DNA of 64,000 bases from contig NW_025408668.1 in assembly GCF_020360975.1 (NCBI RefSeq), positions 7,502,001 through 7,566,000 of the forward strand. The letters are read 5' to 3'. A model generated the notes under the pieces. It did no database searches, was not told the origin of the DNA, and worked only from the letters and a program-made list of their open reading frames with translations. This stretch comes from Hirsutella rhossiliensis (lineage: Eukaryota; Ascomycota; Sordariomycetes; Hypocreales; Ophiocordycipitaceae). Made by a program: the position numbers and the translations under genes. Each line of letters starts with the position of its first letter. The first letter of the stretch is position 1. Shown here one piece after another: positions 3,001 through 64,000 of this stretch.

Positions 3001-4140
3001 CGTCTTTACTTCGGAGCTACTCTTTTTCCTCTAGGCCTAAGGGAGCGGAGTCCTCTTCGTCGTCTAAGGCAAGGAGCGGTTCTATCTTCGCTACTCGAAC
3101 TACTATAGGCCGCTTAGCTAAAAGGAAGGGTCATTTTAATATAAAGTATATAGACGCGCCGTAACGTAGGCAGCGGCCGTTAGCCTTCCTTTTCGATTTC
3201 CTCGCTCGTTACCTACTTCGCGCTACTTAGAGGCGGGATAGTCAGGATATTCGAAGACGACTTCCTACCGCGTTTAGCTCGGTCCGTGCGGGTAGCCGAT
3301 ATTAGGGTGTCTCCGTTAGTGTCGATAGTCGGCTATTCCTCTTATAGAGGGGCGGTGATCCCGTTACCGCTATACGGCGTGCGCTTACGAAGCTTCTAGA
3401 AACGCGGCGTCTGCTCGTAGCCCTATGCTACCTTTATTAACCGGCTTACGTACTCGCCGTAGTTAGTAGGCATAATTACGGGGATAAGTAGCTCCCGTAG
3501 GGCCGGCGTAATTAAGTTCCGTAACTATATAAGCTTCGCGCTGTCTTCCTATACCGTGGTTCCCGCTGCTCGTAAGAGCGTCTCTTCGAAGTCGGGGAGG
3601 AATTCGCTAAAGGTCTGCCCGTCCCTCTACTTAAGGGTCCGTAGCCTATCCTACGCCTTCTCCCGCTCCTATACGTTGCCGAACGTATATATAAGGTATT
3701 AGAAGAAGTCCTATAGGTCGCGTTTGCTTCTAGGGCCGCCCTTGTCCTAGAATCCGGAGATCCGCCGTATCTAGGGCTCCGGTAGCGTATAGAGGAGCGA
3801 ATACCACGCTATATTACGATAGCCGTTTAGGCCCTATTTCTTATCTATTATAAACTTCGTCTATAGCCGGCTAAGGAAGAAGTAGAAGGACTTAGGCTTG
3901 CCGTCCTAAGTCGGCTAGGGAAGCGGCTTCTATATCGGTGGTGCCGCCGCTGTAACCGGTGTTGCTAAGGTCGTAGGGGTTAACGCTAGTCTTATAGACG
4001 GCTCCCTTAGTATAGCGAGAACCTCGTTCTTCTCGCTAGCCGTCGCGCTTCTAATCGCTTCTAGGATAGCTATAATACTTCCTATCCGCCTAGGGGGTAG
4101 CGGGGTGCTCCCTTAGGGAAGCGGCACCCTTTTTAGGGAG
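1..4140 (-). pseudogene. gag-pol of chromovirus A, RIP-inactivated
   Basis: Minus-strand translation, allowing TAG/TAA at former Gln and Trp codons, gives a retrotransposon gag (about 4130-3000), a CCHC-type knuckle region near 3130-3180, an aspartic-protease-like region, and a Ty3/gypsy reverse transcriptase. The catalytic box reads Y-V-D-N at 1758-1769, so the second Asp of YVDD is lost. RNase H follows towards position 1000, and the tract from there to the edge continues pol. Homology to copy F is continuous with only C-to-T and G-to-A type differences plus small indels. No open frame longer than a few dozen codons survives. A functional product is excluded. Confidence 0.88.
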
Positions 4141-4174
4141 ATATCTATTAGATCTATTAGTTAATAGCTTATAC

Positions 4175-4360
4175 TATTACGGAGTAGGTAGAGGCGTATG
4201 CGTAGGTGCCGTCCGTAGGATAATGTTAATAAGCTATATAGAGCTCTTCTATGCGCGGCTGGCCCGCCCCTATACTTATGGGATCCGGCCCTCCGTACGT
4301 AACTACACGGCTTAGGCCGCGGCCTAAGCCTATCACCTATAATAGTTAAAGACTCTTATA
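4175..4360 (-). repeat. 5' LTR of chromovirus A (186 bp)
   Basis: It has the same 186-bp length as both LTRs of copy F and the LTR of copy B. In coding direction it starts TATAAGAGTC (ancestrally TGTAAGAGTC) and ends CCGTAATA. It contains a perfect 22-bp palindrome at 4309-4330 whose half is GGCTTAGGCCG. Confidence 0.92.
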
Positions 4361-6110
4361 CTACGGACTTATATAGGAGCTTCCCTAGTAAGGGAAGGCG
4401 TAGCGCTAACGGATAAGCCTTCCCCTATACCTTTACCTCGGCCTAGTAAGGAGGGATAGACCGGCCTAGGGGCGCGTACGGCGTAGGTATTCTAAGATAA
4501 GGTCCTCTAGCGCTTATAGGATAGGATATCGTCTCTAGACTATACCTATAAGAGCGTGCGCCGCGCTATTAAGTCCGGCGCTTAATACCTCGATCTAAAG
4601 CTAAAGCTAAAGGTATAAGTAGCCGACTATTATATCGACCTATAAGGGCACCTACGTTAGTAAGGGAGACTATAGGTGCTAGGCGCGCCGTATACTATAG
4701 AAGCTAAGGAGAAGGATAGACCGCTAGAGCTAGATAAATAGAACGAGCTTTAAGGGAAGCTAGTCTAGCTCGTCTATAACTTTAGTATTATAGGCTACCT
4801 AGGTAGGTAGGGCATAGTAGTAGGCCTTATAAGGGATTTCTACTAGCCCCTCCTATAGTACTACGTTCGCTACTTCCTTTATAACTATAATATCTATAGC
4901 CGTACTAAGATTTAAAGGGCATAGCTTAAAAGGCTACTTAAGTAGCTTCTAGTACCCGACTAGTTCTATATATATATATAGATAGACTTTATAACGGACC
5001 TCCTACTTATAGAGGGCGGCAACTACTATATATAGGTAATTAAGGACCGACTTAGTAAGTCTATAGTATTAAAGCTAATACTATCTATAGATATAGAGTC
5101 TTATATAAAGCGCTTCTTATAGTACTAGGCCTACTTATATAGCTAGCTAGCCTTTATTATAAGCGATAGGGGATCGAATTAAACTAGCCGCTTTTAGTAG
5201 TACCTATACTAGCTACTTTAAATTACGTAGCTACTTAGTATAGTATATTACCTATAGACTAATAGAGGGCCTAAGAGGGTTAACTAAGAAGTATAGGCTT
5301 ACTTATAGGCCGTTATAGCCCGTAACTAAGTAGACTAAGACTATTAGCTCCTTACGGCCTAACTTATATTAAATAGTAAACTATATACCTCTATTAGGAT
5401 AGCCCTTTTTTTTATAATATATAGCTTTAAACTACCCTTATTAGTTCCCTTTACCGTAGATATAGTAGCGGAGTAGTATAGTAATTTATTACTAGAGGGC
5501 CGCGCCTCTACGTTTATATAAAAGCTATAAAAGACTATAGATTATTACTAATCCGCGATAGCCGCCGCGGCGTAAGATTAAGAGCGGCACGCTAATAAGA
5601 CTAAGGCCCTAGTAGATAGGTTTATAGTAAGAGATAAGGTATAGCTAGACCTCCGTAACTATAGGTCGGTATAGCTAAAGAAGAAGCTTAACTAGCTATA
5701 TATAAAGTTTATAGTATAGAGGGTTATTAGCCCGTAGGTTATAGAGCTCGATAGTCTCTTAATAGGGGTCTATAATAAGATTAATATAGACCTCTTTTAT
5801 AGAGCCTCCTTTAACCCGCTGCCTAAATAAGAAGTAGCGGACGCTTAACCGCCTATAATTAAGGTAAAAGGAGAGGACGAGTTCGAGGTTAAAGAGATAT
5901 AAGCCGCGCGCTAGAAAAAGGTTAGTAAAGGGAAACGCTAAGAGGTCCTCGTTAAGTAGTATAGGTATCTTAACCTTATATAGGAACCTATATATAAGTT
6001 TATAGGAACTATAGCCCTCGATAAGTTTAAAGCCTTATTTAAAATAGTAGATAAGAACGACGGACTAGCGGACTATTAATAGTAGCCTAGGCTAAGACTA
6101 TAAAGTAAGT
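4361..6110 (+). pseudogene. pol C-terminal part of B: integrase and chromodomain
   Basis: The plus-strand frame, with only TAG/TAA stops, covers the end of pol: a linker, an integrase core, and after it at about 5879-6020 a chromodomain whose key segment aligns with the clearer F copy (K-W-R-G-Y and T-W-E-P positions, read as K-Q/*-R-Y and I-Q/*-E-P here). A C-terminal chromodomain places the family among the chromoviruses, in which this module is thought to bind heterochromatin histone marks. It is inactive through many RIP stops. Confidence 0.82.
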
Positions 6111-6216
6111 ATAATAAAGGGGGCAGTTATAGTAATATAGGTAATATAAGCGTAATAGTATAAGTAAAGATAAAAATAGTATTTATTATAAAGTAGAGCT
6201 CTTAAACTACCTAGGC

Positions 6217-7247
6217 CTATTCCTTATTATTATTATTATTATTATTATCTTCGTTATCGTTATCCTCGTCGGCCTCCTCTTTCTTATTAGCGGCGGCGGC
6301 GGTCTTTAGGGCGCTAAGGCGGCCCTCTAAGCCTATAAGCTAGTTAGCGGCGGCGGCGGCTCTAGGGGTAAAGGGGCGGCGGCTAGCGGCGGCGGTAGGG
6401 GCAGCGGCGGTAGTAGAGGCGGGCACGGCTAAGGGGCCCGCCGATAGGGCAATAGAGGTAGTATCCTTAGCGCCGGGTATATTAAAAGCGGAAATAAGGG
6501 AGTAGAGGAGTAAGACTTACTTAGGTATAAGGCCCTATCGCGCGAGGGCGCGGAGGTTACGGTAGGCGGCGGCAGCGGCGGTAAGGCGCTTCTTAGTAGC
6601 CCCCCGCGCCTACCTATACGAGCCGGCCTTTTAAGCTAACGCCGTAGCGAGTAAGATAGGAGGCGCCGCCTTATAGGCACGGCTAGCTCGCGCGCACTAG
6701 TAGCAGCTGCCGCTATAGCGGCGCCCGGCTTAGTCGGAGTAGTCGAGCTCTTACGACGTATAACGTATATAAGGGGCCGAGTAGGCGGCGCCGGCCTATA
6801 CTTAGCGCTTATACTATAAGAGGTTAGCGGATAACGTCTATTACGCTTACCTAACTATAGACTTACGGGGGTAACGGAGACGGAGGCGGGGGCCGAGGGG
6901 CCGGGCGTTATAGGTAGCGGCGGGGACGGCGTCGTTACCCTAAGGGGCGACGTAAGAGCGAATAGCGTAGTAGAGGCGGCGGCGGCGGCGGTAGGAGCGG
7001 TAGTAACGGCGCGGGCAAGAGCGGCGGTAGCGGCGGAGTCGTCGTCGGCCGCGGCTAGCGCAGCGTCGACGAATAACTCCGTACGCTCCGAGAAGGAGGA
7101 GGTAGGAGAGGGAGAGGCGGATATATCTATCGCGGAAGTTAGCACGATAAAAAGCGGCCTCCCGCTCTATAGGGCGCGGAACTTATTAATTAGAGTTATT
7201 ATTATTATTAGGGCTATTATTACTACTACCGCTACTACTATAAGTAT
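6217..7247 (-). pseudogene. Antisense accessory gene in B (RIP-damaged copy of the F gene)
   Basis: This gene lies between pol and the 3' LTR, on the strand opposite to pol, and is homologous to the better copy at 56296-57323. The start codon is lost (ATG reads ATA at 7247-7245). The Ala/Ser/Pro-rich part of exon 1 is still open for 96 codons at 7145-6855 and is very similar to copy F. The Asn/Asp/Glu-rich C-terminal tail and its TAG stop are at about 6290-6217. A TATA-type box (7386-7378) and a purine block on the plus strand (7331-7370, that is CT-rich on the coding strand) are conserved in the same relative place as in F. I do not recognise the protein. Confidence 0.7.
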
Positions 7248-7689
7248 ACGTTAATAGAACGGCCTATATAGCTAGGAATAGACTAACGCCTTAGGTAAAG
7301 CGGAACTTACCTATTAATACTACTACTATAGTTAAAGAAGGGAGAGAAGGAAGGGAAGGGGGAAAAGGGGGATACCGCTTTATATACCTCTTAGTAAAGG
7401 ATATTGCCTAAGGTAAAGGGAACGGGCAACCTAAGGCTTACGTAGGTCCGGACTAGCCGCCGGCTACTTAGAGGCGTATATAATAGGTTACGCCCTTATT
7501 TAAATAACTAGCTAGCCGATAAGTATAGAGCTAGGTCCCGGCTACCTAGGCTAACGGGCGCGGGGATAATAAGGCTAGTAGGGCCGGCCCTATTAACGGG
7601 AAAGGGTAGGGAAGAGCCCGCTATATAGGCCTAATTATATAGGAGCCGTTAATAGGGTAGCGCTATACCGCGCTTAAGGGAGGGCATTA

Positions 7690-7875
7690 TATAAGAGTCT
7701 TTAACTATTATAGGTAATAGGCTTAGGCCGCGGCCTAAGCTATATAGTTACGTATAGAGGGCCGGATCCTATAAGTATAAGGGCGGGCTAGCTACGTATA
7801 AAAGAGCTCTATATAGCTTATTAATATTATCCTATAGACGGCACCTATATATATACCTTTACCTACTCTATAATA
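7690..7875 (+). repeat. 3' LTR of chromovirus B (186 bp)
   Basis: It starts TATAAGAGTC, is preceded by the purine tract AAGGGAGGGCATTA (polypurine tract), and ends CTATAATA. It shares the palindrome at 7720-7741 with one RIP change in the last base. It is 186 bp long, like the other family members. Confidence 0.92.
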
Positions 7876-10800
7876 CTAGGAAGATATATAAAATAAAAAT
7901 TAATAATAATAATAAGCAGCCTATAAATAATATAATAAAGAAGATATAAATATAGCCTTTATACTTATAAAACTTAAATAATAACCTAAAGAGGGATAAT
8001 AAAGTATCGACGATATAAGCTCTAAAGAATAAGAAATACCTAGAGAAACGGAAGATAAGAACGAACTTATACTACTACCTTTATTACTAAGAGAAAATAC
8101 TATAATTAGAGAATACGCTTTATACTTTAAAGAATTTAAAGAAATACTTAAAATTAGAACCTAATAAATACCTTAAATTCTTATAGAAAACTAATAAGCT
8201 ATATTAATTTAATATTAACCGGTACTATATAAAGGAGACTACGCTATAGCTATCGCTATAGTTAATACCTTTATAGCTCTATAATAAGAATAGTAACTAT
8301 AAGGAGAATTTAAAGACGATCTATAAATACTACTTACTTATAAGTACTATAAGTATATTTTATAGATATTATACGTCTACCTAGATTATATAATATACTT
8401 TTAGATAAAAGTATAATACGATGCTTTCTTAGTTAGGTTTAAAGGATAAGTACTTTTAAAACCCTACCTAAGTATAGAACTAGACTACTAGAAAATCGAT
8501 TAACGCTACCTAAACGACTAAGTTATATTAATAAAACCTAATTATAGTATACTACTTAAATACCGCGATAATTATAGTTTACTAATAAAATACCTTTTAG
8601 AGATATATAAAATTTATAAATACGCTAAAATAAAGGAATAGTATAGCGCTACTCGCTTTAAGGTATCTAAACCCTTAATCTTTTAAAGACTTATATAATA
8701 AGTTAAATATAATAAAGAAGATTATAATAAATATATATACTAGAACTATAAAGTTTATAAATATAAAAAGGTATAAGTATAGTATAAACGATATAACGGT
8801 ATACTAAAAGATTATTAGTAATATATATAAAGGCTATAAGCTATATTCGACTAAGGAAGAATCGATATAAAAATACTATACGAAAAATAAAAAGACGCCG
8901 AATAAAAACTTAACCTTTAGTACGAAAATAAATAGAATTATAAAGTATAGTACGTAATTAACTATAAAGTAGTATAATATAAACGATATAGCGTTAAGAA
9001 ATAAGAAATCTTTAATTAGCTATAAGAAATTAGTCTCTTAAGCCCTAATATAATACTACGCGATAAAAATATAAAGAAACGATATTAATAATAAATTAAA
9101 GAAGAATACCTAAATAAAATAAATAAGGACTAAGTAAAAAATAAGGTATACTATTTATAAAAGGGCTATAAACTAGTACGATATAATAAGATCTAAGGAC
9201 CCTATATATAGTAACGGTAAGCTATAGCGACTAAATAGTATTAGATATCTAAATCGCGGGATATTATATATATATACTTTTAGACTATAGCGCGATAGGT
9301 AATTACGTTTTACTTAAAGTCGTTAATCGTTACTAACTTATATAAAGATATAAGAAAGATCTATATAAACTTATAAATATTAAAAGAGAGGCCTTTAACT
9401 ATAATAACGGAATTATTAATATAAAGATTAATTACCTTAATATTAATATCTAGGGCTATAACGAATAAGTTAACTTTAATATTATAAGTATTAAAGAATA
9501 TAACCTTATATTAAGGCTTCTATAGCTATAGGAGAGCAACCTAATAATTAATTAGAAAACTAGCTAGCTATATTAAAACGAAGATATAAGTTTCTAGGAC
9601 TAGTAGATTTAAAAGAAAGTAAAATTTTATAATAATTTAGCTACTAAATAAGATAAAAAGGATAACTATTTAAGTAAATTATTATAGGCTTTAGTAATAT
9701 AAACGAAAATAGTAACCGAACTAGTAGATATAATAAAATCGACTAATAAGATTTACGTACTAACTAATACGGCTATATAACCTAGTATCTAATATAAATA
9801 GAATAAAGGATATAATATAAAGATTTAAAGAGTTATTGCTACTTTAAGGAAAGACCTTAAATAAATTAATAAAGAGCTTAAGTTAAGAGAAACTAGCTCT
9901 TAAAAGAAAGAATAAAGCTTATAAGATAGAATAAAGAATATCCCTTAAGAATACCGGAAATATAATAAACTCTTTAAGGAAAAACTTAAGATAGGGTTAC
10001 CTAAATATAGTTAATAGGACTACGAAATTTATCTTAAGGATAGAATAACGCCGACGTTCTATAAAATCTATAATATAAATAAAAAGTAACTATAAACGCT
10101 ATACGACTACCTTAACGAGAATCTATAAAAGGGATATATATAAACGTTAATATCTAAAGTAAGCTACCTAGTTATATTTATTCTAAAGAAAAACAGTAAG
10201 CTATAACTAGTTATTAACTATAGACGCTTAAATAATATTATAATAAAGGACCGAATACTATTACCGCTTATATTAGAACTATAAGATCGACTATATAGTA
10301 AAAAATAGTTTATAGCCTTTAATCTTAAAGGCGCCTATAACTTAATATATATAAAAAAGGGATATAAATAGATAATAGCTTTTAAAACGAAATTTAGACT
10401 ATTTTAATATCTAGTAATACTATTTAGACTTATAAATATACTAGCTACCTTTTAATAGATAATTAATAATATCCTACGCGAATACTTAGATATCTTTATA
10501 GTAGTATACTTAGATAATATCCTAATCTTCTTAGATACCTTAGAAGAATATAAGGAATACGTTTATAAGGTACTCTATATACTTTAAAATATAAAGTTAC
10601 TAGTTAAACTAAAGAAAAGTAAGTTTTATATATAGGAAGTAGACTTCCTTAGATATATAATCTTACTAAGAGAGATATAAATATAATAAAATAAGATTAA
10701 CTTAGTTAAAGAATAGCTAATACTAAAGAATATTAAGGATATATAAAGCTTCCTAGGATTTATAAATTACTACCGACGATTTATTAAAGATTTCGGAAAG

Positions 10801-12157
10801 ATTATAGTACTACTATATAACTTAATAAAAAAGGAAAAAGAATTTATATAGAAAGATAAAGCTAACGAAGCTTTCGAATATATTAAAACTACGATTATAT
10901 AAGAACTAGTCTTAACTACCTTTAATCTAAAACGATAAATCGAACTTAAAACTAATATATTAGACTTTACTTTAAGAGTATAAATCGGATAGAAGGACGA
11001 TAAAGGAAGACTACGACTAATTATATTCTACTTAAAAAAGCTATATAGCGTAGAACTTAATTACCCTATCTACGATAAAGAATTCCTTATAATTATTTAA
11101 GCTTTTAAAGAATTTCGATACTACCTTCTTAAAAGTAAGTATAAAGTTAAAGTCTATATAGATTATAAGAATATCTTATACTTTATAATAATATAATAGT
11201 TAAACGGATAATAGATCCGATAGGCCGAATATTTATTAGAATTCGACTACGAAATAATCTATAGAAAAGGAATAGAAAACGGTCGAGCTAATACCTTTAG
11301 TTAACGAAGTAACTACGATATAAGAGCACTTATAGCGAAAGAATAGCTCCTAGAAATTAACGAAAACGGAAACTACTAGTAATAATAGCTAAATATAATA
11401 TTTAAAGTATAACTTAACGACTCGATATACTAAAAGATCTTAAAATAAATAAAAGAATATAAAGTATTAAAGGGATATAATATAAAATATTTAGAAGTTC
11501 TAATATATAAAAATAAAATCTAGATACTACTAGCGTTATAAGATAAAGTTATATAAGATATATATAAATATCTAATATATAGATACTAAGGAATCTAAAG
11601 AATAATAAAATAGATTAAACGGTAATATAACTTCCTATAGCTTAAGGAAGTAGTACGATAAGTTATTAAAAAATATAAACTTTACGTATAAAGTAAAGCT
11701 AAACGATATAAGCTATATAAAGAATTATAACCGCTACTAATACTAGAGAAGCTATAGGATTCGATAGCTTTTAATTATATTATAAAGCTACTACTATTAA
11801 AAGAACCTATAACTAACGTTAAGTATAATAGTATATTTATTATTACCGACCGATTAATAAAATATAGATACTTCTTACTATATAAAGAAGTAAGTAATAT
11901 AGAAGAGCTAGTATATATATTCCTATAAATAATTATTAGTAATTATAAACTACTAAACGAGATTATCTTTAATAGAAGAAGTATATTTATAGCTAAGTTT
12001 TAGCAAGCCCTTATAGTATAATTAAGGACGAAATATAAGCTTAGTATAGCTTATTACCTATAAATAAATAGATAAATAAAACGACTTAACTAAACGCTTA
12101 AATAATATTTACGATACTATATTAGCTACGAATAAAACGATTAAGTTAAATAGCTAC
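7876..12157 (+). mobile_element. Gypsy element C, left part (gag-pol), heavily RIPed
   Basis: This is a plus-strand Ty3/gypsy element of a type common in fungi, cut on the left by B and on the right by D. Its frame resumes exactly at 24714 after D. There is no 5' LTR at 7876; the beginning of gag and the LTR must lie left of the window beyond B. Its single LTR in the window is the 3' one at 26121-26583. Confidence 0.88.
7876..12157 (+). pseudogene. gag-pol of element C up to mid-integrase
   Basis: The translation is punctuated only by TAA/TAG. It shows a gag-like N-terminal part (about 7900-9200), a protease region (about 9240-9800), and reverse transcriptase with the box Y-L-D-N-I-L-I-F at 10507-10530 (ancestral YLDD). 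RNase H (about 10960-11300) has the typical Y-D-K-E-F stretch. The integrase zinc and catalytic domains start near 11560 and break at 12157 in the segment reading V-K-(W)-L. The reading frame continues at 24714. Almost every Gln and Trp codon is a stop and many Cys and His are Tyr, so the gene is dead. Confidence 0.88.
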
Positions 12158-12532
12158 TTTAACGGGTAAGATTATACCCCTATAGACATTAGCCCGTTAG
12201 AGGGATAAGACCCCTAGCACCCCCTCTAACTTTCTTCTAAGTATACTTAAAGGCGTTATAAAGACCTCGATTATCTAATTAAGCAGCATCCTTAATTATA
12301 GTTAATTTAAATTTTTTGTTTTTCCCCTTTAAAGTAGATACCGTTAGTTACGCGACTCTAGTAGAAACAAAGAGGCATAGAGTAAAGAAATCTCTAAGAC
12401 TCGTATTTATAACCTAAAGCCTATAGAGCTATATATAGACTAAGTAATTAGATAATTGCGTAGTTAATTGCTCTGCTAATCCTTTACTACGTGCTGCGCG
12501 TGCTTTAGGTATATGCCCTCGTCCCCGTTAAA
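12158..12532 (+). repeat. 5' LTR of element D
   Basis: It is 375 bp and nearly identical in layout to 24349-24713 and to the solo LTR at 42621-42995. Compared with the solo copy it shows CpA to TpA changes (for example GGGTAAGATTATAC against GGGCAAGATCATAC), direct pairwise evidence of RIP. Confidence 0.93.
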
Positions 12533-47890: not shown

Positions 47891-48130
47891 GACCAAGATA
47901 TATTTAGGCAGCACCTATAAGTGGTGAGTCACTGGATAGTGGCACGGACGTGCCGCTATGTATATATGTATGTTGAGAGCTGTCAGATAGAATAGAATAG
48001 AAGTAAGTTCAATCGCAACAGTCCTGAAGCGGAAGTTCAACCTAACGGACTTTTGGGGTCGGTACGAGTGGCAGGGCAGGGGTTCCAGTCACCACCATAG
48101 CCTATATTGGCTAAGTGGCCACCTAGACTT
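47891..48130. other. Junction DNA between gag fragment and helicase fragment
   Basis: No gene. It contains a short palindrome (GGCACGGACGTGCC, 47941-47954) and an imperfect GAATA repeat near 47995. Could be an LTR remnant; no partner is in the window. Confidence 0.35.
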
Positions 48131-49575
48131 AGATCCTGACAATGATCGGTCTGGATAGCGATTCGCCCGTATCTAGGGATATTATATATCTGCTATTAAC
48201 CCGGAGCCTCGGCGCATACAGGCACCCGGAGAAGGAAACCCTCTGATTATTAATCTATTGCAACACCCCCTTACCGTTCAATTCCTATCGATAATAGTTA
48301 ACCGCGTGCAACGCTACTACTATAACAACTACTATATGCACCTCAGCAAGCATACTAAGCAGATAGAGTGCCGCTTTAGATTTCCTCACGGCCAGCGCCT
48401 ACTAGCCTCCCTTAACAAGGCTCCTCACTCTAAGCACTAGAGCTTTAGGGGCGCGCGGAACGATAGCTAGATTAACCACTATAACCGCTTGCTTACCGTT
48501 GCGTGGCTAGCCAATATAGATATCTCGCCCTGCACGAGTCTATAGCAGGTGATCGACTACGCAGCAAAATACTGCTCTAAGTTAGAAAAGAAGAGCGATT
48601 CTTTTGCCTAGATTGGGAAGGCCCTAATGCCCCGGGTTAAGGACCACAACCCCCTGATTTCCTTTACGTCAAAGCTACTAAATTAGCTAGTTTCTGAGCG
48701 GGATTACTCGAAGTAGGAGGTTTGCCACTTGCTCCTCGGCCTGCCGTTATAGGAGGGTTCACGAACCTGCCTATACGTTGACTGCCGTAATTCTAATAGG
48801 CATTCCCGCTACCTCCGCATTGACGGCGATGAGGTTGATGAGGCACCCAACGTCTACGAGAAGTACAGTCAACGCCTAGAAGCTCTAACGGACCTCACTT
48901 ACGTCTCCTTCCTTAAATTCTAGAATTTCCGCTCTAGAGACCCTTCTAAGTGGAAGCAATAGCAGCCAGGCAATGTCAACGGCAGGCCCCGTGTGTTGGT
49001 TTACTTTCCTCGCTATCAGGCTGATCTAGAAGGCCAGCAGTAAGTGGCCAGACTACTGCCGTGTAAAGCTGACTTTAAATCACCTACATCGCCGGCTCGA
49101 TGAGCTCCTCACTTTCGACGGCCAGCTTTTTGATTCCCACGTTCAGGCCTTCTCCTATTATTGGCAGCATCACAGTCACGATGATGACCATTACGGCCAG
49201 CCAAGTGAGGCTCGATTATAGCCTCAAGAGGATCAATACGAGGCTCTGCCTATGGAGGAAGATTTGATGACGAAGACTGGATTCGCCTGGCTGCCCTTTT
49301 ACCTAACCACCCCCTTACCTAGGAAGACCTTGATATACTTGGCCACCGCGATATCGACGTCAATTACGACTGGTCCCGGCATATGGGTACTTATCCGGAG
49401 CTTCGAGATGGCTACTGGAAAGACCTTATCGCTAGCCACCCCGTAGCCAACAATGTGGAGGTCCTTGGCCCTCACTGGCGTGATGAGCTGAACCTACAAC
49501 AACGGCTCGTGTACGACACATTCATAGGTCACTTCCAGGCGCAAAATCCTACTCAAATCCTTCTTCACGTCACCC
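48130..49575 (+). pseudogene. Helitron-type PIF1 helicase, N-terminal fragment
   Basis: The plus-strand frame, interrupted only by TAG, reads the region upstream of the helicase core: R-L-L-T-V-A-W-L-A-N-I-D-I-S-P-C near 48490, Y-A-A-K-Y-C-S-K-L near 48562 and S-E-R-D-Y-S-K near 48695. After a frame change near 49030 come D-I-D-V-N-Y-D-W-S-R near 49360 and L-Q-Q-R-L-V-Y-D-T-F near 49495. These are typical of fungal Helitron RepHel/PIF1 proteins. The match ends at I-L-L-H-V, just before where Walker A should start, so the ATPase core is missing. Confidence 0.8.
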
Positions 49576-51004: not shown

Positions 51005-51194
51005 TGTGAAAGGCCTCTAGTGAGTTGATATAACTAACTAGTCCCTATGCTGCTTACTATTAAGATATAGAAGAAAGTAAGAAAGAAAGAGAATCTACTA
51101 CATAAGAGCATAACGGCATTTTATAGCTTCGAGCCAATAGAAGGTTCTAGAAGGTAGGCGGCGCAGCCGCCGTTAAAGGGGCTTGCCCGTTACA
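51005..51194 (-). repeat. 5' LTR of element I (190 bp)
   Basis: On the minus strand it begins TGTAACGGGCAAGCC and ends CCTTTCACA. It matches 51575-51764 in inverted orientation. It includes a CTTTCTTT pyrimidine run. Confidence 0.93.
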
Positions 51195-51574: not shown

Positions 51575-51764
51575 TGTAACGGGCAAGCCGCTTTAACGGC
51601 GGCTGCGCCGCCTACCTTCTAGAACCTTCCATTGGCTCGAAGCTATAAAATGCTATTGTGCTCTCATGTAGTAGATTCTCTTTCTTTCTTTCTTTCTTCT
51701 CTATCTTGATAGTGAACAGCATAGGGACTAGTTAGTTGTATCAACTCACTAGAGGCCTTTCACA
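51575..51764 (+). repeat. Solo LTR of family I with AGATG target duplication
   Basis: 190 bp, TG...CA ends, flanked by AGATG at 51570-51574 and 51765-51769. It is in inverted orientation to the element-I LTR 380 bp away. It is likely the product of LTR-LTR recombination. Confidence 0.95.
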
Positions 51765-54640: not shown

Positions 54641-55667
54641 ATTAGAAAACCTACTAATTTATTAGGGCTTATAGGACCTTAAGCATAAATAATATAATAG
54701 AGCTTTACTTGCTATTAGGTAGCTTCTTATAGTAGAGAGATGCCCGTTTAAATAGCGTGTCGATTATTAGGCCCTCTAATATCTTAACCCTAGAGACCGC
54801 AATATAGCTAAGCCTAGTCTAGAAGTTACGTTTAGATAGATCGGTTACTATTTTATCTACTATAATGCTCTGTGACTTATAAACCGTAATAGCATATAAT
54901 GCTATAAGTAGGAATTGCGTTCGGGTACGGGCGGACGCCCTAAGAAAGAAATCTCGCTTTACTAGGAGTATAGGTACTACCTCGCGCCTATTATCCGTAG
55001 TTAGATACGATGGCCCGGTATACTTATCTATTACTATTATAATAATAGACGGCGGGTTATAGTGCGTATTAGCGCTAGAGGCCTAACCGATGTTATATAC
55101 TATCCCTTAGGCGCTATTAACTATGCCTATTAGATGCTAGATGTTCTAGGTTAGCATAAGACGAGCACTAATGCATACCGCAAACTAGCTAGCTAGGTTG
55201 CCGGCTTATTCCGATATTGCCCTATTAGCACCGTTACTAATGTTCTTCGCTATAACTTAGATTGCTAGACGCTTAAGGCGGACGAGATACTTATAGTTAT
55301 ACTTATTTATACGTGCTTTCTTACTATAGATATGAAGAGCAGCATTAAACGCATCTACCTCGCGCTGGCCTAGCTTAGCCTATACACGCTAGCTTAGAAG
55401 TTTCCATAACTCGACGGATAGCTTTAGACCACGTAATTCGTTAAGCGTAAGCCGAAAACTAGCCTAGTTATCGCCCTATTGCCGCTAGGCTTTTTTTAAG
55501 GAGACGGTATAGATAAACGCTATATATACGCTCTAGCTAGAGACCTTATATAGGTCTTTAAGCGGTCGATTAAAGTAGAGGGGTTTATTCGTAATCGGCG
55601 GGAGCTAGAAGAAGTCACTAACGAGGATAATACTTATGCCGCTAAAGAATTCGGTTGCTCTAGCAGG

Positions 55668-55853
55668 TGTCACGGAGTAGGCAGAGGCGTGTGCGTAGGT
55701 GCCGTCCGTAGGATAATGTTAATAAGCTATATAGAGCTCTTCTATGCGCGGCTGGCCCGCCCTTATACTTACGGGATCCGGCCCTCCGCACGTAACTACA
55801 CGGCTTAGGCCGCGGCCTAAGCCCATCACCTATAATAGTTAAAGACTCTTATA
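55668..55853 (-). repeat. 3' LTR of chromovirus F
   Basis: On the plus strand it begins TGTCACGGAGTAGG, so its coding-strand end ...CCGTGACA still has the canonical CA. A perfect 22-bp palindrome lies at 55802-55823. Confidence 0.96.
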
Positions 55854-56156
55854 CAATGCCCTCCCTCGAGCGCGGCGTAGCGCTGCCCTATTAATAGCTC
55901 CCGTATAATTAGGCCCGTGCCGCGGGCTCTTCCCTGCCCTTTCCCGTTAATAGGGCCGGCCCTACTAGCCCTATTATCCCCGCGCCCGTTAGCCCGGGTA
56001 GCCGGGACCCGGCTCTATACTCGTCGGCCGGCTAGCCGTTTAAATAAGGGCGTAACCTATTATATACGCCCCTAGGTGGCCGGCGGCTAGTCCGGACCTA
56101 CGTAAGCCTTAGGTTGCCCGTCCCCTCTACCTTAGGCAGTATCCTCTACTAAGGGG

Positions 56157-56209
56157 TATATAAGGCGGCATCCCCCCCTTCCCCCTTCCCTTCCTTCTCT
56201 CCCTTCTTT
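56157..56209 (+). promoter_or_regulatory. Promoter of the antisense gene in F
   Basis: A TATA box (TATATAAGG, 56157-56165) is followed by a 39-bp almost pure C/T block (56171-56209), then the start codon at 56296. The same TATA and CT block occur in copy B at 7386-7378 and 7370-7331 in the equivalent place. This is a typical layout for fungal core promoters; activity is inferred. Confidence 0.6.
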
Positions 56210-56295
56210 AACCGCAGCAGCAGCATTAATAGGTAAGTTCCGCTCTACCTAGGGCGTTAGTCCGTTCCTAGCTATACGGGCCGCTCTATTAACGT

Positions 56296-57323
56296 ATGCT
56301 CGCAGTAGTAGCGGCAGCAGCAATAATAGCCCTAACAATAATAATAACTCTAACTAGTAAGTTCCGCGCCTTATAGAGCGGGAGGCCGCATTCCGTCGTG
56401 CTAACTTCCGCGATAGATATATCCGCTTCTCCCTCTCCTACCTCCTCCTTCTTAGAGCGTGCGGAGTCGTTCGTCGACGCCGTGCTAGCCGCGGCCGACG
56501 ACGACTCCGCCGCTGCCGCCGCTCTTACCCGCGCCGCTGCCACCGCTCCTACCGCCGCCGCCGCCGCCTCTACTACGCTATTCGCTCTTACGTCGCCCCT
56601 TAGGGTAACGACGCCGTCCCCGCCGCTACCCGTGACGCCTGGCCCCTCGGCCCCCGCCTCCGTCTCCGCTACCCCCGTAAGTCCGTAGTTAGGTAAGCGT
56701 AATAGACGTTGTCCGCTAACCTCTTATAGCATAAGCGCTAAGTGCAGGCCGGCGCCGCCCGCTTAGCCCCTTATATACGTTATGCGTCGTAGGAGCTCGA
56801 CTGCTCCGACTAGGCCGGGCGCCGCCGCGGCGGCAGCTGCTACTAGTGCGCGCGAGCCGGCCGCGCCTATAAGGCGGCGCCTCCCGTCCTACTCGCTACG
56901 GCGTCGGCTTAGAAGGCCGGCTCGTATAGGTAGGCGCGGGGGGCTGCTAAGAAGCGCCTTACCGCCGCCGCCGCCGCCTACCGTAACCTCCGCGCCCTCG
57001 AGCGATAGGGCCTTATACCTAAGTAAGTCCTACTCCTCCGCTCCCCTATTTCCGCCTCTAACGCACCCGGCGCTAGGGATACTACCTCCGTCGCCCTATC
57101 GGCGGTCCCCTTGGCCGTGCCCGCCTCCGCTACCGCCGCTGCCCCTGCCGCCGCCGCTAGCCGCCGCCCCTCTACCCCCGGAGCCGCCGCCGTAGCCGAC
57201 TAGCTTACGGGCTTAAAGGGCCGCCTTAGCGCCTTAGAGACCGCCGCCGCCGCTAATAAGAAGGAGGAGGCCGACGAGGACGACGATAACGAAGATAATA
57301 ATAATAATAACGATAAGGAATAG
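56296..57323 (+). pseudogene. Antisense spliced gene inside chromovirus F (about 300 aa)
   Basis: It is encoded on the strand opposite to pol. Exons 56296-56676, 56748-57022 and 57077-57323 total 903 nt (301 codons). Introns have GTAAGT donors and CAG or TAG acceptors; the second has CTCTAAC at 57056-57062. The phases match (0 and 2). Predicted protein: hydrophobic N-terminus (M-L-A-V-V-A-A-A-A-I-I-A-L-T), Ala/Ser/Pro-rich part, a C-Y-(x)-C-A-R-A-G-R-A segment in exon 2 with a likely C-x2-C-x6-C, an Ala/Arg helix (K-K-R-L-T-A-A-A-A-A-Y-R-N-L), a coiled-coil-like L-T-G-L-K-G-R-L-S-A-L-E, and an acidic Asn-rich tail. In-frame TAGs (56374-56376, 57006-57008 and others) are RIP-like. I know no family for it. 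Confidence 0.65.
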
Positions 57324-57439
57324 GCCTAGGTAGTCTAGGGGCTCCGCCCTATAATAAACGCTATTTTTATCTCCGCCCGTACTATTGCGCTTATATTGCC
57401 TATATTGCTATAACTGCCCCCTCCGCTATGCCTACTTCG

Positions 57440-60400
57440 TGGTCCTAGCCCGGGCTACTATCGGTAGTCCGCTAGTCCGTCGTTCTCGTCTACCGTTCCG
57501 AATAAGGCTTTGAACTTATCGAGGGCTACGGTTCCCGTAAACTTACGTGCGGGTTCCTACGTAAGGTCGAGATACCCGCGCTACTTAACGAGGACCTCCT
57601 AGCGTTTCCCCCTACTAACCTTTTTCTAGCGCGCGGCCCGTATCTCTTTGACCTCGAACTCGTCCTCTCCCTCTACCTCGATTACGGGCGGTTAAGCGTC
57701 CGCTGCTTCTTATCTAGGTAGCGGGTTAAAGGAGGCTCTACGAAGGAGGTCTACGTTAATCTTATTATAGACTCCCGTTAGGAGACTATCGAGCTCTATA
57801 ACCTACGGGCTAATAACCCTCTATACCGTAAACTTCGCGTATAGCTAGTTAAGCTTCTTCTTTAGCCGTGCCGACCTATAGTTATGGAGGTCTAGCTATA
57901 CCTTATCTCCTACTATAAACCTATTTACTAGGGCCCTAGTCTTATTAGCGTACCGCTCCTAATCTTACGCCGAGGCGGCTATCGCGGATTAGCAATAATC
58001 CGTGGTCTCCTATAGCTTTCGTACGAACGCGGAGGCGCGGCCCTCCGGTAACGAATTACTATGCTACTCCGCTGCTACGCCTACGGTAAAGGGAACTAGT
58101 AAGGGTGGTTCGAAGCTATATATTATAAAGAAAGGGGCTATCCTAATAGAGGTATATAGTCTACTATTTAATATAAGTTAGGCCGTAGGGAGCTAACGGT
58201 CTTAGTCTACTTAGTTGCGGGCTACGACGGCCCGTAGGTAAGCCTACGCCTCTTAGTTAACCCTCTTAGGCCCTCCGTCGGTCTATAGGTAATATGCCGT
58301 GCTAAGTAGCTATGTGATCTAAAGCAGCTAGCATAGGTGCTGCTAAAAACGGCTAGTCTAATTCGATCCCCTATCGCTTATAATAGAGGCTAGCTAGCTA
58401 TGCGAGCGGGCCTAGTACTATAGGAAGCGCTCTATATAGGACTCCGTATCTATAGACGGTATCGGCTCTAATACTATAGACTTACTAAGTCGGTCCTTAA
58501 TTACCTATATATAGCGGTTGCCGCCCTCTATAAGTAGGAGGTCCGTTATAAAGTCTATCTATATATACGTATAGAACCGGTCGGGTACCGGAAGCTACTT
58601 AAGCAGCCCCTTAAGCTACGCCCTTTAAATCTTAGTGCGGCCGTAGATATCGTAGTTACGGAGGAAGCGGCGAACGTAGTGCTATAGGAGGGGCTAGTAG
58701 AAATCCCTCGCGAGGCCTGCTGCTATGCCCTGCCTACCTAGGTGGCCCACGATACTAGAGTTATAGACAAGCTAGACTAGCTTCCCTCGGAGCTCGTTCC
58801 GTTCGTCTAGCTCCGGCGGTCTATCCTTCTCCCTAGCTTCTATAGTATACAGCGCGCCCGGCACCTATAGTCTCCCCCGCTAACGTAGGTGCCCCCGTAG
58901 GTCGATATAATAGTCGGCTACTTATACCTTTAGCTTTAGCTTCGGATCGAGGCGTCGAGCGCCGGACTTAACGGCGCGGCGCACGCTCTCGTAGGTGCGG
59001 TCTAGAGACGACATCCTATCCTATAAGCGCTAGAGGACCTCATCTTAGAATACCCGCGCCGCACGCGCCCCTAGGCCGGTCTATCCCTCCTCGCCGGGCC
59101 GAGGCGAAGGTATAGGGGAAGGCTCATCCGTTAGCGCCGCGCCTTCCTCTACTAGGGAAGCTCCTATATAAGTCCGTAGCGCTTCTTACGGGATAAGCTA
59201 TAGATCCCGGGCCTCGATGTCCGCTCCCGTCGGCCGGTCCTAATCCCTCCGGGAAAGCGTATCTAGGACTACGGAGTCCCGCCCTAGCCGGTACTTAATC
59301 GAGAAGTTAAAGCGTAAGAGATACTCCGCTTAGCGGGCTTACCGCTCCGAGAGGTACTAGCGGGTTATAAAGTACTCGAGGTTCCTATAGTCTATAAGAA
59401 CCTCGAAGCTCTTATAGCTCTAGAGCTCCGCTTACTATGGCTCGAGGTAGCTAATAATCGCTAGTATCTCCTTATCGTAAATAGTATAATTCCGCTCCGC
59501 TAGGGTTAGCTTACGGGAGTAGAACGCCACCGGTTGCTTCCGCCCGTCTACCTCCTAGGAGAGCGTTCCTCTGAGTGCCTAGCCGCTATAGTCCGCTTTA
59601 ACTAACGTAGACCGGTCGAAGTCCTACTAAAGTAGTACCGGGGCTTAAGAGAATAGGTCCTTAAGCGTGCGGAACGCTCCTTCCTATACGGGCCCTTAGC
59701 GAAAGGCGGTCCGCTTCCCGGTAATCTCGTTTAAGGGCATTATAATACGGGAGAAGCCCCTAATAAATATCCTATAGTAGTTCGCGAACCTAAGGAAGCT
59801 CCGTACGCCTATCTACGTGGTTAGGGCAGCCTAGTCCCGAATCGCCTAGATCTTTGCGGGATCCGCCTATATGCCTACGCCGGCGTAGATAATAAAGCCT
59901 AGGTACTTAACCCTCTTAACCCCGAATTCGTACTTATCCGGGTTAAGGTAGAGCCTATAAAGTTAGAGGCGCTCTAGGACCCTCCGCACCTTCTATATAT
60001 AGTCCTTATAGGAGCCGCTCGTATAGATAAGGATATTATCTACGTATATAGAGGCGAACTCGTCGAGGAAGTCCTAAAGCACGTTATTAATATAACGCTA
60101 GAAGGTAGCGGGCGCTCCTAAGAGGCCGAAGGGCGTTATAAGCTACTTAAATAAGCCGTAGCGTGTATAGAACGCCGTCTTCTACTCGTTACCCTCCGAG
60201 ATCCGCACCTTATAGAACGCCTATTTTATATCTAGCTTCGTAAACTACTTCGCCTTCGAAAGGTTATAGAGCGTATCCGAGATTAGGGGTAAGGGGTAGC
60301 GGTCCGGCCTTATAATTACGTTTAGAGCCCTATAGTCGTAATAGAACCGTATCCCGCCCCTTAGTTTACGCACGAATAGGACCGGCGCTCTTACTTCGGA

Positions 60401-61300
60401 GCTGCTTACTTAAATAAAACCCTTATCTAGGAGGTCCCTTAGCGTCTTCTTTAGCACTAGCAGTTCCGGGTATAATATACTATATAGCGGTCCGAACGGT
60501 GCGGGTAGTTCCTACCCCTTTTTATTAGTGCGGAGTACGATCTTATAGTCTACCCCCGGCTTATACGGGTTAAGCTTATCCGCTTCCTAGGACTTAAATA
60601 GCGGTAGGAGGTCGTAAAAGCGCTCCGGTATCTACTACCGTAGCTTAGAGGGCGACTTTAGCTTCTTTGCCCGGAGGGCCTTATCGATGTCCGCTAGGCT
60701 AACTACGCAGACTACTACGTTAGCCGCTGCCCGGCCTTCCTCCCGCTCTAACCGTCGCACGGTTCCTATAAAGATAGAGGTAAGGACTTCTTATACCGAG
60801 TATAAAGCTCGCACGCTTAGTCCTACGCCTACGGAACTATCGTCGTAGCGGACCTACCGTTGCGTAGGCCTAAACTATAGCTTCTTCTAGTGCGGAACCG
60901 AGTATAACTCCGTATATAATAACTAGGGTTTCCCGAGGATTAAGGGAAACTCTAGTTAGGGGATTATATAGGCTACGATAAGCTTATAGTAACCGTCGAC
61001 CTCTATAGCTAGCTATATAATGCCCCTAATTACCGTACCCTCTATCGCGCCTAAGGCGCCCTTTACTCGCCTTAGGGCGATCTTTTCTACCGGCACTTAT
61101 ATCTCTCGTGTAAGCGCCTCGTTAACTACGGCGTAGCACTAGCAGCCCTCGTCTATAAGGGCGGCGACGGGCAAGGAGTTATTAACTATAACCTATATTA
61201 AAGTAGGCTCCTTTTCTATATAGGCGGATAATTCCTCCTTCTCCTTTGCTAGTGCTAGCAATTAGGGCTCCGGAGCCCGTCTTTGCTCCGGAGCTACTCT
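57440..61300 (-). pseudogene. pol of chromovirus F (protease, RT, RNase H, integrase, chromodomain)
   Basis: A continuous frame with RIP stops. Near 61130 lies a protease-like L-I-D-E-G-C (family LIDTGC/S). RT has Y-V-D-N-I-L-I-Y at 60046-60035 onwards (YVDD lost its second Asp). RNase [10 protein letters not shown] follows near 59470, then the integrase. The C-terminus at about 57600-57530 reads V-L-V-K-(W)-R-G-Y-L-D-L-T-(W)-E-P-A-R-K-F, a chromodomain with its aromatic cage Trp codons turned to TAG. It is the best preserved pol of the family in the window but cannot be functional. Confidence 0.87.
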
Positions 61301-62420
61301 TTTTCCTCTAGGCCTAAGGGAGCGGAGTCCTCTTCGTCGTCTAAGGTAAGGAGCGGTTCTATCTTCGCTACTTAAACTACTATAGGCCGCTTAGCTAAAA
61401 AGAAAGGGCATTTTAATATAAAGTATATAGACGCGCCGCAATATAGGCAGCGGCCGTTAGCCTTCCTTTTCCCGATTTCCTCGCTCGTTACCTACTTCGC
61501 CCGCTGCTTAGAGAGCGGGATAGTCTAGGGGATATTCGAAGACGACTTCCTACCGCGTTTAGCTCGGTCCGTGCGGGTAGCCGACATTAGGGTGTCTCCG
61601 TTAGTGTCGATAGTCGGCTATTCCTCTTATAGAGGGGCGGTGATCCCGTCACCGCTATGCGGCGTGCGCTTACGAAGCTTCTAGAAACGCGGCGTCTGCT
61701 CGTAGCCCTATACTACCTTTATTAACCGGCTTACGTACTCGCCGTAGTTAGTAGGCATAATTATAGGGATAAGCAGCTCCCGTAGGGCCGGCGTAATCGA
61801 GTTCCGTAACTATATAAGCTTCGCGCTGTCTTCCTATACCGTAGTTCCCGCTGCTCGTAAGAGCGTCTCTTCGAAGTCGGGGAGGAATTCGCTAAAGGTC
61901 TACCCGTCCCTCTACTTAAGGGTCCGTAGCCTATCCTACGCCTTCTCCCGCTCCTATACGTTGCCGAACGTATATGTAAGGTGTTAGAAGAAGTCCTATG
62001 GGTCGCGTCTGCCTCTAGGGCCGCCCTTATCCTAGAATCCGGAGATCCGCCGTATCTAGGGCTCCGGCAGCGTATAGAGGAGCGAATACCACGCTATATT
62101 ACGACAGCCGTTTAGGCCCTATTTCTCGTCTATTATAAACTTCGTCTATAGCCGGCTAAGGAAGAAGTAGAAGGACTTAGGCTTACCGTCCTAAGTCGGC
62201 TAGGGAAGCGGCTTCCGTATCGGTGGTGCCGCCGCCGTAACCGGTGTTGCTAAGGTCGTAGGGGTTAACGCTGGTCTCGTAGACGGCTCCCCTAGTGCAG
62301 CGAGAACCTCGTTCTTCTCACTAGCCGTCGCGCTTCTAATCGCTTCTAGGATAGCTATAATACTTCCTATCCGCCCGGGGGGTAGCGGGGTGCTCCCTTA
62401 GGGAAGCGGCACCCTTTCTA
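61300..62420 (-). pseudogene. gag of chromovirus F
   Basis: It starts shortly after the 5' LTR. Landmarks: A-I-L-E-A-I-R-S-A-T-A-S near 62330, F-Y-F-F-L-S-R-L near 62170, a capsid-like region with F-S-E-F-L-P-D-F-E-E near 61880, and a zinc knuckle at about 61452-61405 reading C-L-Y-C-G-A-S-I-Y-F-I-L-K-C: the three Cys remain and the His is Tyr (CAC to TAC). Many Gln codons are TAG/TAA. Confidence 0.82.
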
Positions 62421-62459
62421 GGGAGATATCTATTAGATCTATTAGTTAATAGCTTATAC

Positions 62460-62645
62460 TATTACGGAGTAGGCAGAGGCGTGTGCGTAGGTGCCGTCCG
62501 TAGGATAATATTAATAAGCTATGCAGAGCTCTTCTATGCGCGGCTGGCCCGCCCCTATACTTACGGGATCTGGCCCTCCGCACGTGACTACACGGCTTAG
62601 GCCGCGGCCTAAGCCTATTACCTATAATAGTCAAAGACTCTTATA
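62460..62645 (-). repeat. 5' LTR of chromovirus F
   Basis: 186 bp, starts TATAAGAGTC on the coding strand and ends CCGTAATA; palindrome at 62594-62615. Differences from the 3' LTR (TGTCACGG against TATTACGG at the end) are RIP-type. Confidence 0.96.
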
Positions 62646-64000
62646 GCAGGAAAGACTTAACGGAGGCGTTTATCGATCTACGAAAGTTAACGTAGACCTA
62701 GCATGCTTTTCTTATTAATTATAAGATACCTAACGCCCCGTAGCTTCTTCTAAAGAGTATTAGCATCTGCTAGGGAGAGCTCCGAAAAAGCCCTATTAAT
62801 AGGTAGCCGGAGTAAAGAGTATAATATTATTCCTATTATCTAGTTGCTTGCAACACCCGTAGGTATAGCTCTCTAGATTAGACTAGGCGGGTTACCGGCA
62901 AGCCCCTAAAGATGCGAAGATAGGACTTTAATAAGGTAGGACTTACCTATACCGCTACCACCGTTAATATAGAGTAGAATCTACTCCTCGCTGCTATATT
63001 AGAAGTATCCAACGAATATATCGTATACGATCCGCTGCTCTAGGTTAAGCGTATCACGGACCTCGAAAGGAAGGTCTTTAATATCTATATAGAGAGGATT
63101 CTACGTAATACGCTAGCGCTAATAATCGCCCTAAACGATACCTAGATTAGCGTAGCGACCGACGTAGGGTATCTAATTATATTAGATATCGATATCCCGT
63201 CTACCTAGGAGATCTACTATCTCTTAGCTTAGTAGGTAGTCGGGAAGCTAGCGGGCAAGCTTAAGCTAGTCCTCCTCTAGAAGGTTAGGCTCGTAAAATT
63301 ATTCCTCGAACTTATCCGGATCCGGTCAACGGTCTTCGGCATTAAGTATGCTATAGTAATTATTAGGGTGCTAGTAGTTCGTAAAATAGAATTCGGCGGT
63401 AGATATATACGAGTTATACTCGATACCGTTAATCTTACGTAGTTTATTAGGATCGCGATAAGGGTAAGTAAGTATTAGCTTTACCCGATAAAAATCATCG
63501 TATTAGTAATACTACGGATTCGACTTATACCGCGGAAAGTAGTATAGTACTCGAGGCTTAGCTTAACGACTCTAACGTATCTACTTTCTCCTATCCCTCT
63601 TACTTATATTCTAGTTAGCTAGGAAGTTAAGGTAAGTAAGTTCTTTATAAAGGGAAGGGCGAGAAAGATACTTCTTATATATCCTAACGACCTTAGCGTC
63701 GTTATTATAATTACCTTAGAGGCGAAGCGACCGGCCCTATTACTCGTAGGGACGGCAATCAACGGCTCTTATAACACGGGTACCTTCCTAGAGCTCGTAG
63801 TTAAGTAATATATAGTAGATCTCTTAGCCCGAGAAGTCCCTTTTAGTAAGCAGCTTATTTATTAGACGCGAGGCAAAAGAAAGAAGTAGATTCTAGTAGG
63901 AGACGTAGGGTAAGATTTGCTGCCCTAGGCTTATATAACTATCGGTCTACTTCTCTATCTTACTATAATACTTAGCTACGTAATTAATAACGGCTTAAAG

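Follow-up and report, generated by a model that had tools for sequence, protein, structure and literature searches.

We have identified an intron-bearing gene in a Ty3/gypsy retrotransposon of the fungus Hirsutella rhossiliensis; it is located in the stretch that separates pol from the 3' LTR and runs opposite to gag-pol. The gene has four introns, its splice signals and its protein-level sequence are conserved among copies, and it is present at all 40 pol copies that were checked. On the signals and substitution patterns described below, the antisense frame is very likely a real protein-coding gene. In our view, this Ty3/gypsy lineage probably carries it as a standing third gene, which would encode an antisense accessory protein.

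The retrotransposon and the antisense gene

The window, that is, the whole stretch of 64,000 nucleotides that was analysed, belongs to the genome of H. rhossiliensis (Ophiocordycipitaceae; 81.8 Mb in 40 contigs), a species described as occurring on cyst nematodes (PMC4255773). Across large parts of the window, a TA/AT ratio above 1.4 and scarce CA and TG dinucleotides form the signature of repeat-induced point mutation (RIP), and RIP has been reported for the close relative H. minnesotensis. At 8001-12000, where the GC content is 23% and CA or TG occurs one to two times per kb, RIP is near-complete. A 158-base repeat is present in three direct copies at 12375, 24556, and 42838, which are 92-99% identical to the first, and inverted 190-base arms at 51005-51194 and 51575-51764, 94% complementary and 380 bases apart, lie in a little-mutated stretch.

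A complete, RIP-mutated LTR retrotransposon occupies positions 55668-62645, with gag-pol on the minus strand, a pair of LTRs, and a target-site duplication. In its pol, read with stops as X, Pfam recognised a reverse transcriptase (RVT_1, 9.1e-23) followed by RNase H (RT_RNaseH_2, 1.9e-19), the order that defines Ty3/gypsy elements. The Integrase_H2C2 match was weak (4.3e-4, under the Pfam cut-off); in pol of a second element family, described below, the same domain was over the cut-off, together with rve (3.2e-8). By eye, pol in the window ends in a chromodomain-like stretch, and Pfam returned no chromodomain at the pol end of either family (pieces with X at stops). Accordingly, the element is likely, yet unproven, to be a chromovirus. 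The window holds a further copy of the element in the same direction (1-4361), which is cut by the window start and whose antisense gene lies outside the window at G000:C2:7500499-7500792, and this copy is joined at the LTR to a truncated inverted copy at 4361-7868. The features of the complete element and of its antisense gene are as follows.

55663-55667, no strand: left target-site duplication GCAGG, 5 bp, matching 62646-62650
55668-55853, minus: 3' LTR, 186 bp, of which 182 bases align with the right LTR at 95% identity
55854-56155, plus: region from the 3' LTR to the TATA box, putative antisense promoter region (role inferred)
56156-56166, plus: TATA box GTATATAAGGC, 11 bases identical in 63 of 69 copies with data, TATATAA in 69 of 69
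56170-56232, plus: leader exon 1 with the CT-rich leader (approximate left border)
56233-56305, plus: intron 1, in the 5' leader; donor GTAAGT in 68 of 69 copies, YAG acceptor in 67 of 69
56306-56356, plus: leader exon 2
56357-56416, plus: intron 2, in the 5' leader; donor GTAAGT in 59 of 69, TAG acceptor in 68 of 69
56419-56676, plus: coding exon 3, with the start codon position at 56419-56421 and a third-position substitution excess
56677-56729, plus: intron 3; donor GTAAGT in 53 of 70, acceptor TAG in 51 of 70 and AAG in 18 of 70
56730-57022, plus: coding exon 4, which holds the conserved AAAAAYRNLRxLER segment as well as the cysteine motif
57023-57076, plus: intron 4; donor GTAAGT in 63 of 71
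57077-57323, plus: coding exon 5, with the WLxGLEGRxxALE segment, the acidic tail, and the stop
57458-62400, minus: gag-pol with many stops (approximate borders); reverse transcriptase and RNase H matches, weak integrase match
62460-62645, minus: 5' LTR, 186 bp
62646-62650, no strand: right target-site duplication GCAGG, matching the left duplication

The earlier note had placed a gene between pol and the 3' LTR on the strand opposite to these two reading frames, and its position on the plus strand was borne out, as were the TATA box, whose conservation is listed above, and the CT block that follows it. The gene and pol are convergent, and 134 bases separate its end from the first stop of the pol frame (57458-57460). 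In 56157-57323, the plus strand contains the word GTAAGT four times, in each case at a predicted donor, and the minus strand does not contain it; 1000 dinucleotide shuffles of the same stretch contained it 0.24 times on average and three times at most, so that none reached four. The rest of the element has no GTAAGT on the plus strand and four on the minus strand. Most copies retain a branch-like (C/T)T(A/G)AC together with an acceptor of the form YAG, the exception being the acceptor of intron 3, where 18 of the 20 copies of a subfamily (subfamily 2, below) read AAG. An in-frame CAG 18 bases downstream offers an alternative acceptor for this intron.

The structure of the gene differs from the first proposal in its 5' part. 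An ATG had been placed directly before intron 1, but ATG is found there in none of the 69 copies. On the other hand, a literal ATG stands at 56419-56421, just after intron 2, in three of the 69 copies (L030, L079, and L081; the window copy is without one), and the second family has an ATG at the corresponding place, which indicates that introns 1 and 2 belong to the 5' leader. The hydrophobic start once ascribed to the protein is thus the leader read as protein, since the start codon sits past intron 2. The GTAAGT donors and the matching phases of the introns stood, whereas their number rose from two to four, and the two-intron model with its frame of 301 codons, or about 300 residues, was dropped. 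In the four-intron model, the coding exons 56419-56676, 56730-57022, and 57077-57323 join without a phase break into 798 bases, or 266 codons including the stop.

Copies, stops and coding constraint

Searching the genome with the DNA of 56157-57323 gave 703 candidates, and the 40 that were scored are 92-100% identical; a 98-residue piece of exon 4 gave 687 candidates, and all 150 that were scored carry at least three stops. The alignment comprised 71 gene copies, namely two in the window, 43 others (39 of them drawn from the list of 703), and 26 that were picked from the protein list for their divergence. They split into a main group of 51 and subfamily 2 with 20 copies, the latter at 80-85% identity to the window copy. 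The 5' part is missing in two of the 71, and some copies have private frameshifts.

The end of pol was searched in the same genome (835 candidates, 150 scored), and the presence of the gene was checked for the best 40 matches, the window copy included. The antisense gene adjoins pol in all 40 of these best matches among the 150 scored. For 32 of them, a match from the gene search sits, by eye, where the gene would be expected. The other eight were not listed in the gene search and were considered as pol copies without the gene; this was rejected, as 294-base pieces from each of the eight align to the gene. At three of the eight, a different part of the gene lies at the expected distance, and these copies probably carry deletions. 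In these best 40 of 150 scored matches, the element has the gene as a standing part rather than as an insertion in a single copy, and the position and retention of the gene agree with those of the antisense accessory ORFs termed aORF-3R, which lie between pol and the 3' LTR and are kept in most copies.

The earlier note had suggested looking for un-RIPed copies, and all 71 contain stops (3 to 11 per copy, with a median of 8). Eleven internal codons are stops in at least three copies, and at ten of these one or more copies have a sense codon, a pattern as expected from RIP. Codon 147 (56910-56912) is a stop in all 71 family-1 copies, with a conserved frame beyond it, and the matching codon of the second family is a stop in 21 of 21 copies (20 TAG and one TAA). 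This stop may be a RIP hot spot, a fixed stop of the source elements, or a site of read-through or recoding. A fifth intron that would remove it was considered and not adopted: by eye, GTGCGC is the sole donor-like word common to both families, and no branch motif was seen. The NCBI model P0003 uses this word, and the models P0001, P0003, P0004, and P0005 each avoid the stop in a different way, which we read as model artefacts. A further Hirsutella gene model, P0002, has the domains PF12550 and PF16787, and its last part is derived from coding exon 3 of the antisense gene; it is probably a fusion created by gene prediction.

The proposed check of the dN/dS type between copies came out in favour of the spliced frame. 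With RIP-type changes and stop codons masked, pN/pS was 0.32-0.53 in this frame, compared with 1.02-1.49 and 1.60-2.22 in the shifted frames, over 30 non-independent pairs formed by six main-group and five subfamily-2 copies, all lightly mutated. Exons 3 and 4 each show a third-position excess in their own, different genomic frame (three pairs), and together they gave chi-square p values of 0.0003 and 0.003 (two pairs). Exon 5 alone had a pN/pS of 0.55-0.80 with no clear third-position excess (three pairs). A cruder count of transversion-type differences by codon position was weakly periodic: in exon 4, fixed differences fell 5/1/6 and shared ones 1/0/6 on positions 1/2/3, and around exon 5 they were nearly flat.

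In the coding exons, all eight indels common to at least three copies are multiples of three, against three of seven found in two copies and 17 of 34 found in one; several of the shared ones sit in trinucleotide repeats, which favour multiples of three without selection and thus temper this evidence. The sole intronic indel common to at least three copies is a +1, aligned at 57030 in intron 4, present in 22 of the 71 copies and in 19 of the 20 of subfamily 2.

A profile search of proteins, in which the 7996 candidates sharing the most words were scored, returned three matches, all from H. rhossiliensis. One of these, HRG_004121 (P0003), comes from the second element family, which has 709 candidates in the genome. 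In a lightly mutated copy of this family, L095, TATATAAGG lies 250 bp before a literal ATG (the equivalent distance in the window is 262 bp), the leader has one intron by eye, introns 3 and 4 are at the family-1 positions with intron 4 also in the same phase, and the 3' end of pol lies behind the gene on the opposite strand. The second family thus keeps the TATA box, the ATG, the coding-region introns, the cysteine motif, and the tail. Its antisense protein is 46-52% identical to those of five family-1 copies, and nucleotide identity between the two families is 0.60-0.69, 0.67-0.70, and 0.50-0.53 at codon positions 1, 2, and 3. At the DNA level, L095 and family 1 are 67.7% identical in pol and 65.8% identical in the gene over the alignable stretch. 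The NCBI model of HRG_004121 independently uses introns 3 and 4, and it also treats as intron the internal stop that matches codon 147 and, with it, half of the cysteine motif. Positions 8-469 of the L095 flank are 76.6% identical, inverted, to 48035-48496 of the window.

The predicted protein, its possible role and competing readings

The predicted product has about 265 residues. An alanine- and proline-rich start is followed, in this order, by PCxxCx6C, CxxCx6C, AAAAAYRNLRxLER, WLxGLEGRxxALE, and an acidic tail. Accordingly, the Cys motif and the acidic tail of the first proposal were recovered, in coding exon 4 and at the end of the frame (57323), respectively; the family-2 protein ends in a basic KKKARRA. 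Segments of the protein may be helix-prone, which we state with low confidence, as the predicted structure of P0003 from a four-row alignment had a mean pLDDT of 43. Pfam gave no match for the family-1 antisense protein and two sub-threshold, chance-level rows for P0003. Protein searches at E up to 10 found no relatives outside H. rhossiliensis; these searches need shared five-residue words and cover predicted proteins only, so that RIP-mutated relatives elsewhere would escape them.

In family 1, cysteine is seen at five of the six motif positions, at one of them in 2 of 70 copies and at the others in 23, 30, 44, and 52 of 71, and the sixth position is never cysteine but tyrosine in all 71. 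In the 21 copies of family 2, each of the six positions is cysteine in some copy, and no copy has all six (by eye). The spacing read across second-family copies, CX2CX6C-X10-CX2CX6C, resembles that of Zn2Cys6 (GAL4-type) clusters, whose canonical form is CX2CX6C-X5-12-CX2CX6-8C, whereas the basic residues of the canonical loop are missing here. The Pfam search of both motif pieces returned no family, Zn2Cys6 included, at E up to 10. As Pfam gave no match, we call the motif zinc-cluster-like only.

On its signals, transcription of the gene would start at a separate TATA promoter next to the 3' LTR and run towards pol, with which the gene is convergent, and the antisense transcript would be spliced four times to give the mRNA. 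The sense genomic RNA, which has no GTAAGT in the gene stretch, would not be spliced there. Since the splice signals are antisense to this RNA, the introns would be retained through every cycle of retrotransposition, and their unharmed passage through reverse transcription would explain how an intron-bearing gene persists in a retrotransposon. The product could bind zinc, and its most likely role is that of a nuclear regulator of the element that would bind nucleic acids and act on the DNA or RNA of the element itself, as the motif and the analogy with antisense accessory proteins of the brtn, Grande gene23, or HBZ type suggest; we put a nuclear regulator at slightly under an even chance. The earlier note had similarly suggested that the gene could regulate the element or the host response. 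More tentatively, a fungal gypsy lineage may have kept, in at least two families, an antisense gene with several introns and a separate promoter, and the zinc-cluster protein that it encodes may be a nuclear regulator of the element, as a fungal counterpart of HBZ. If so, antisense introns would be immune to loss by retrotransposition. Cassettes with an antisense intron are used for detecting retrotransposition, and the introns described here would be a natural version of them.

It is unlikely, but conceivable, that the antisense transcript and not the protein matters, as a source of dsRNA or small RNA that silences or tunes the element. The position and the promoter signals of the gene would suit this role, which has been proposed for antisense ORFs (PMC7264820), but it needs neither the protein constraint, nor the in-frame indels, nor diverged relatives with kept intron phases. 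The transcript and the protein may also both have a role. An improbable origin of the gene is a fungal host gene that was captured once and carried as a passenger: its introns and host-type promoter would be accounted for, but the word-based search of predicted proteins found no host homologue, and the gene is kept under constraint in two families that are about one third apart in pol bases.

It is very improbable that an env-like frame on the sense strand is coding and merely mirrored by the antisense frame. The minus strand does have an open stretch of 144 residues (56289-56723), and in exons 3 and 4 one frame of this strand shows a mirrored substitution signal with a similar pN/pS, so that the strand has to be decided by the splice signals. 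These lie on the plus strand, with four GTAAGT in the gene against none on the minus strand; moreover, some copies have a literal ATG, the plus-strand frame ends in a stop, and the second family reads the same strand. Finally, a chance frame born of GC-rich repeats and RIP bias is scarcely credible, since, for all the alanine- and proline-rich low complexity and the patterned way in which RIP makes and removes codons, the donors and other splice signals, the phases, the masked substitution test, and the diverged family agree in speaking against chance, as the earlier note had argued from phases and promoter elements.

Comparison with known antisense genes

Antisense accessory genes are already known from a few LTR retrotransposons. 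In plants, gene23 of the maize element Grande is antisense, lies between pol and the 3' LTR, and has its own promoter and a nuclear product, and related antisense ORFs are found at the same place in rice RIRE2 (PMC7264820). The Hirsutella gene shares their position and orientation and differs in belonging to a fungal element. Retand elements have lineage-wide antisense ORFs with a TRP28 domain and probable DNA binding (PMC11963269). The likeness again lies in the place and in the presence throughout a lineage, whereas Retand is a plant, non-chromovirus lineage, and its TRP28 (PF04195) is not among the Pfam matches of the Hirsutella antisense protein. HBZ of HTLV-1 is a nuclear antisense accessory protein of a retroelement (PMC11963269); as it comes from another virus group, its likeness is one of analogy only.

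According to a 2020 review, the functions of antisense genes are unknown, and a search for antisense and spliced transcripts is called for; the word "intron" is absent from its passages searched here (PMC7264820). Likewise, "antisense" is absent from the passages searched of the survey "LTR Retrotransposons in Fungi" (PMC3248453). Among the titles and abstract openings that we searched, none described a fungal gypsy element with a spliced antisense gene, or any gene of this type in Hirsutella. Within this range, the four-intron antisense gene with its conserved promoter and splice signals appears to be new, as does the cysteine-rich, zinc-cluster-like protein without found relatives, which is constrained across two families. 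Strand and coding frame are fixed by the conserved introns on sequence alone, and with protein constraint in two families the gene offers a tractable case for asking whether antisense genes regulate transposition.

The earlier note knew of no described fungal gypsy family with such a gene; however, a precedent exists in the Boty-like elements of Botrytis cinerea, in which brtn is encoded in antisense (Zhao et al. 2011, as cited in PMC8365987, PMC7264820, PMC5987419, and PMC4227169). As described there, brtn is an antisense gene between pol and the 3' LTR of a fungal Ty3/gypsy element, and a gag-pol with a CHROMO domain has been reported for Boty-like elements. On the other hand, our protein searches (E up to 10) returned only Hirsutella proteins; BRTN enters this comparison by its description in the citing papers. 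If brtn were intron-bearing and related, the Hirsutella gene would be a further member of the brtn kind.
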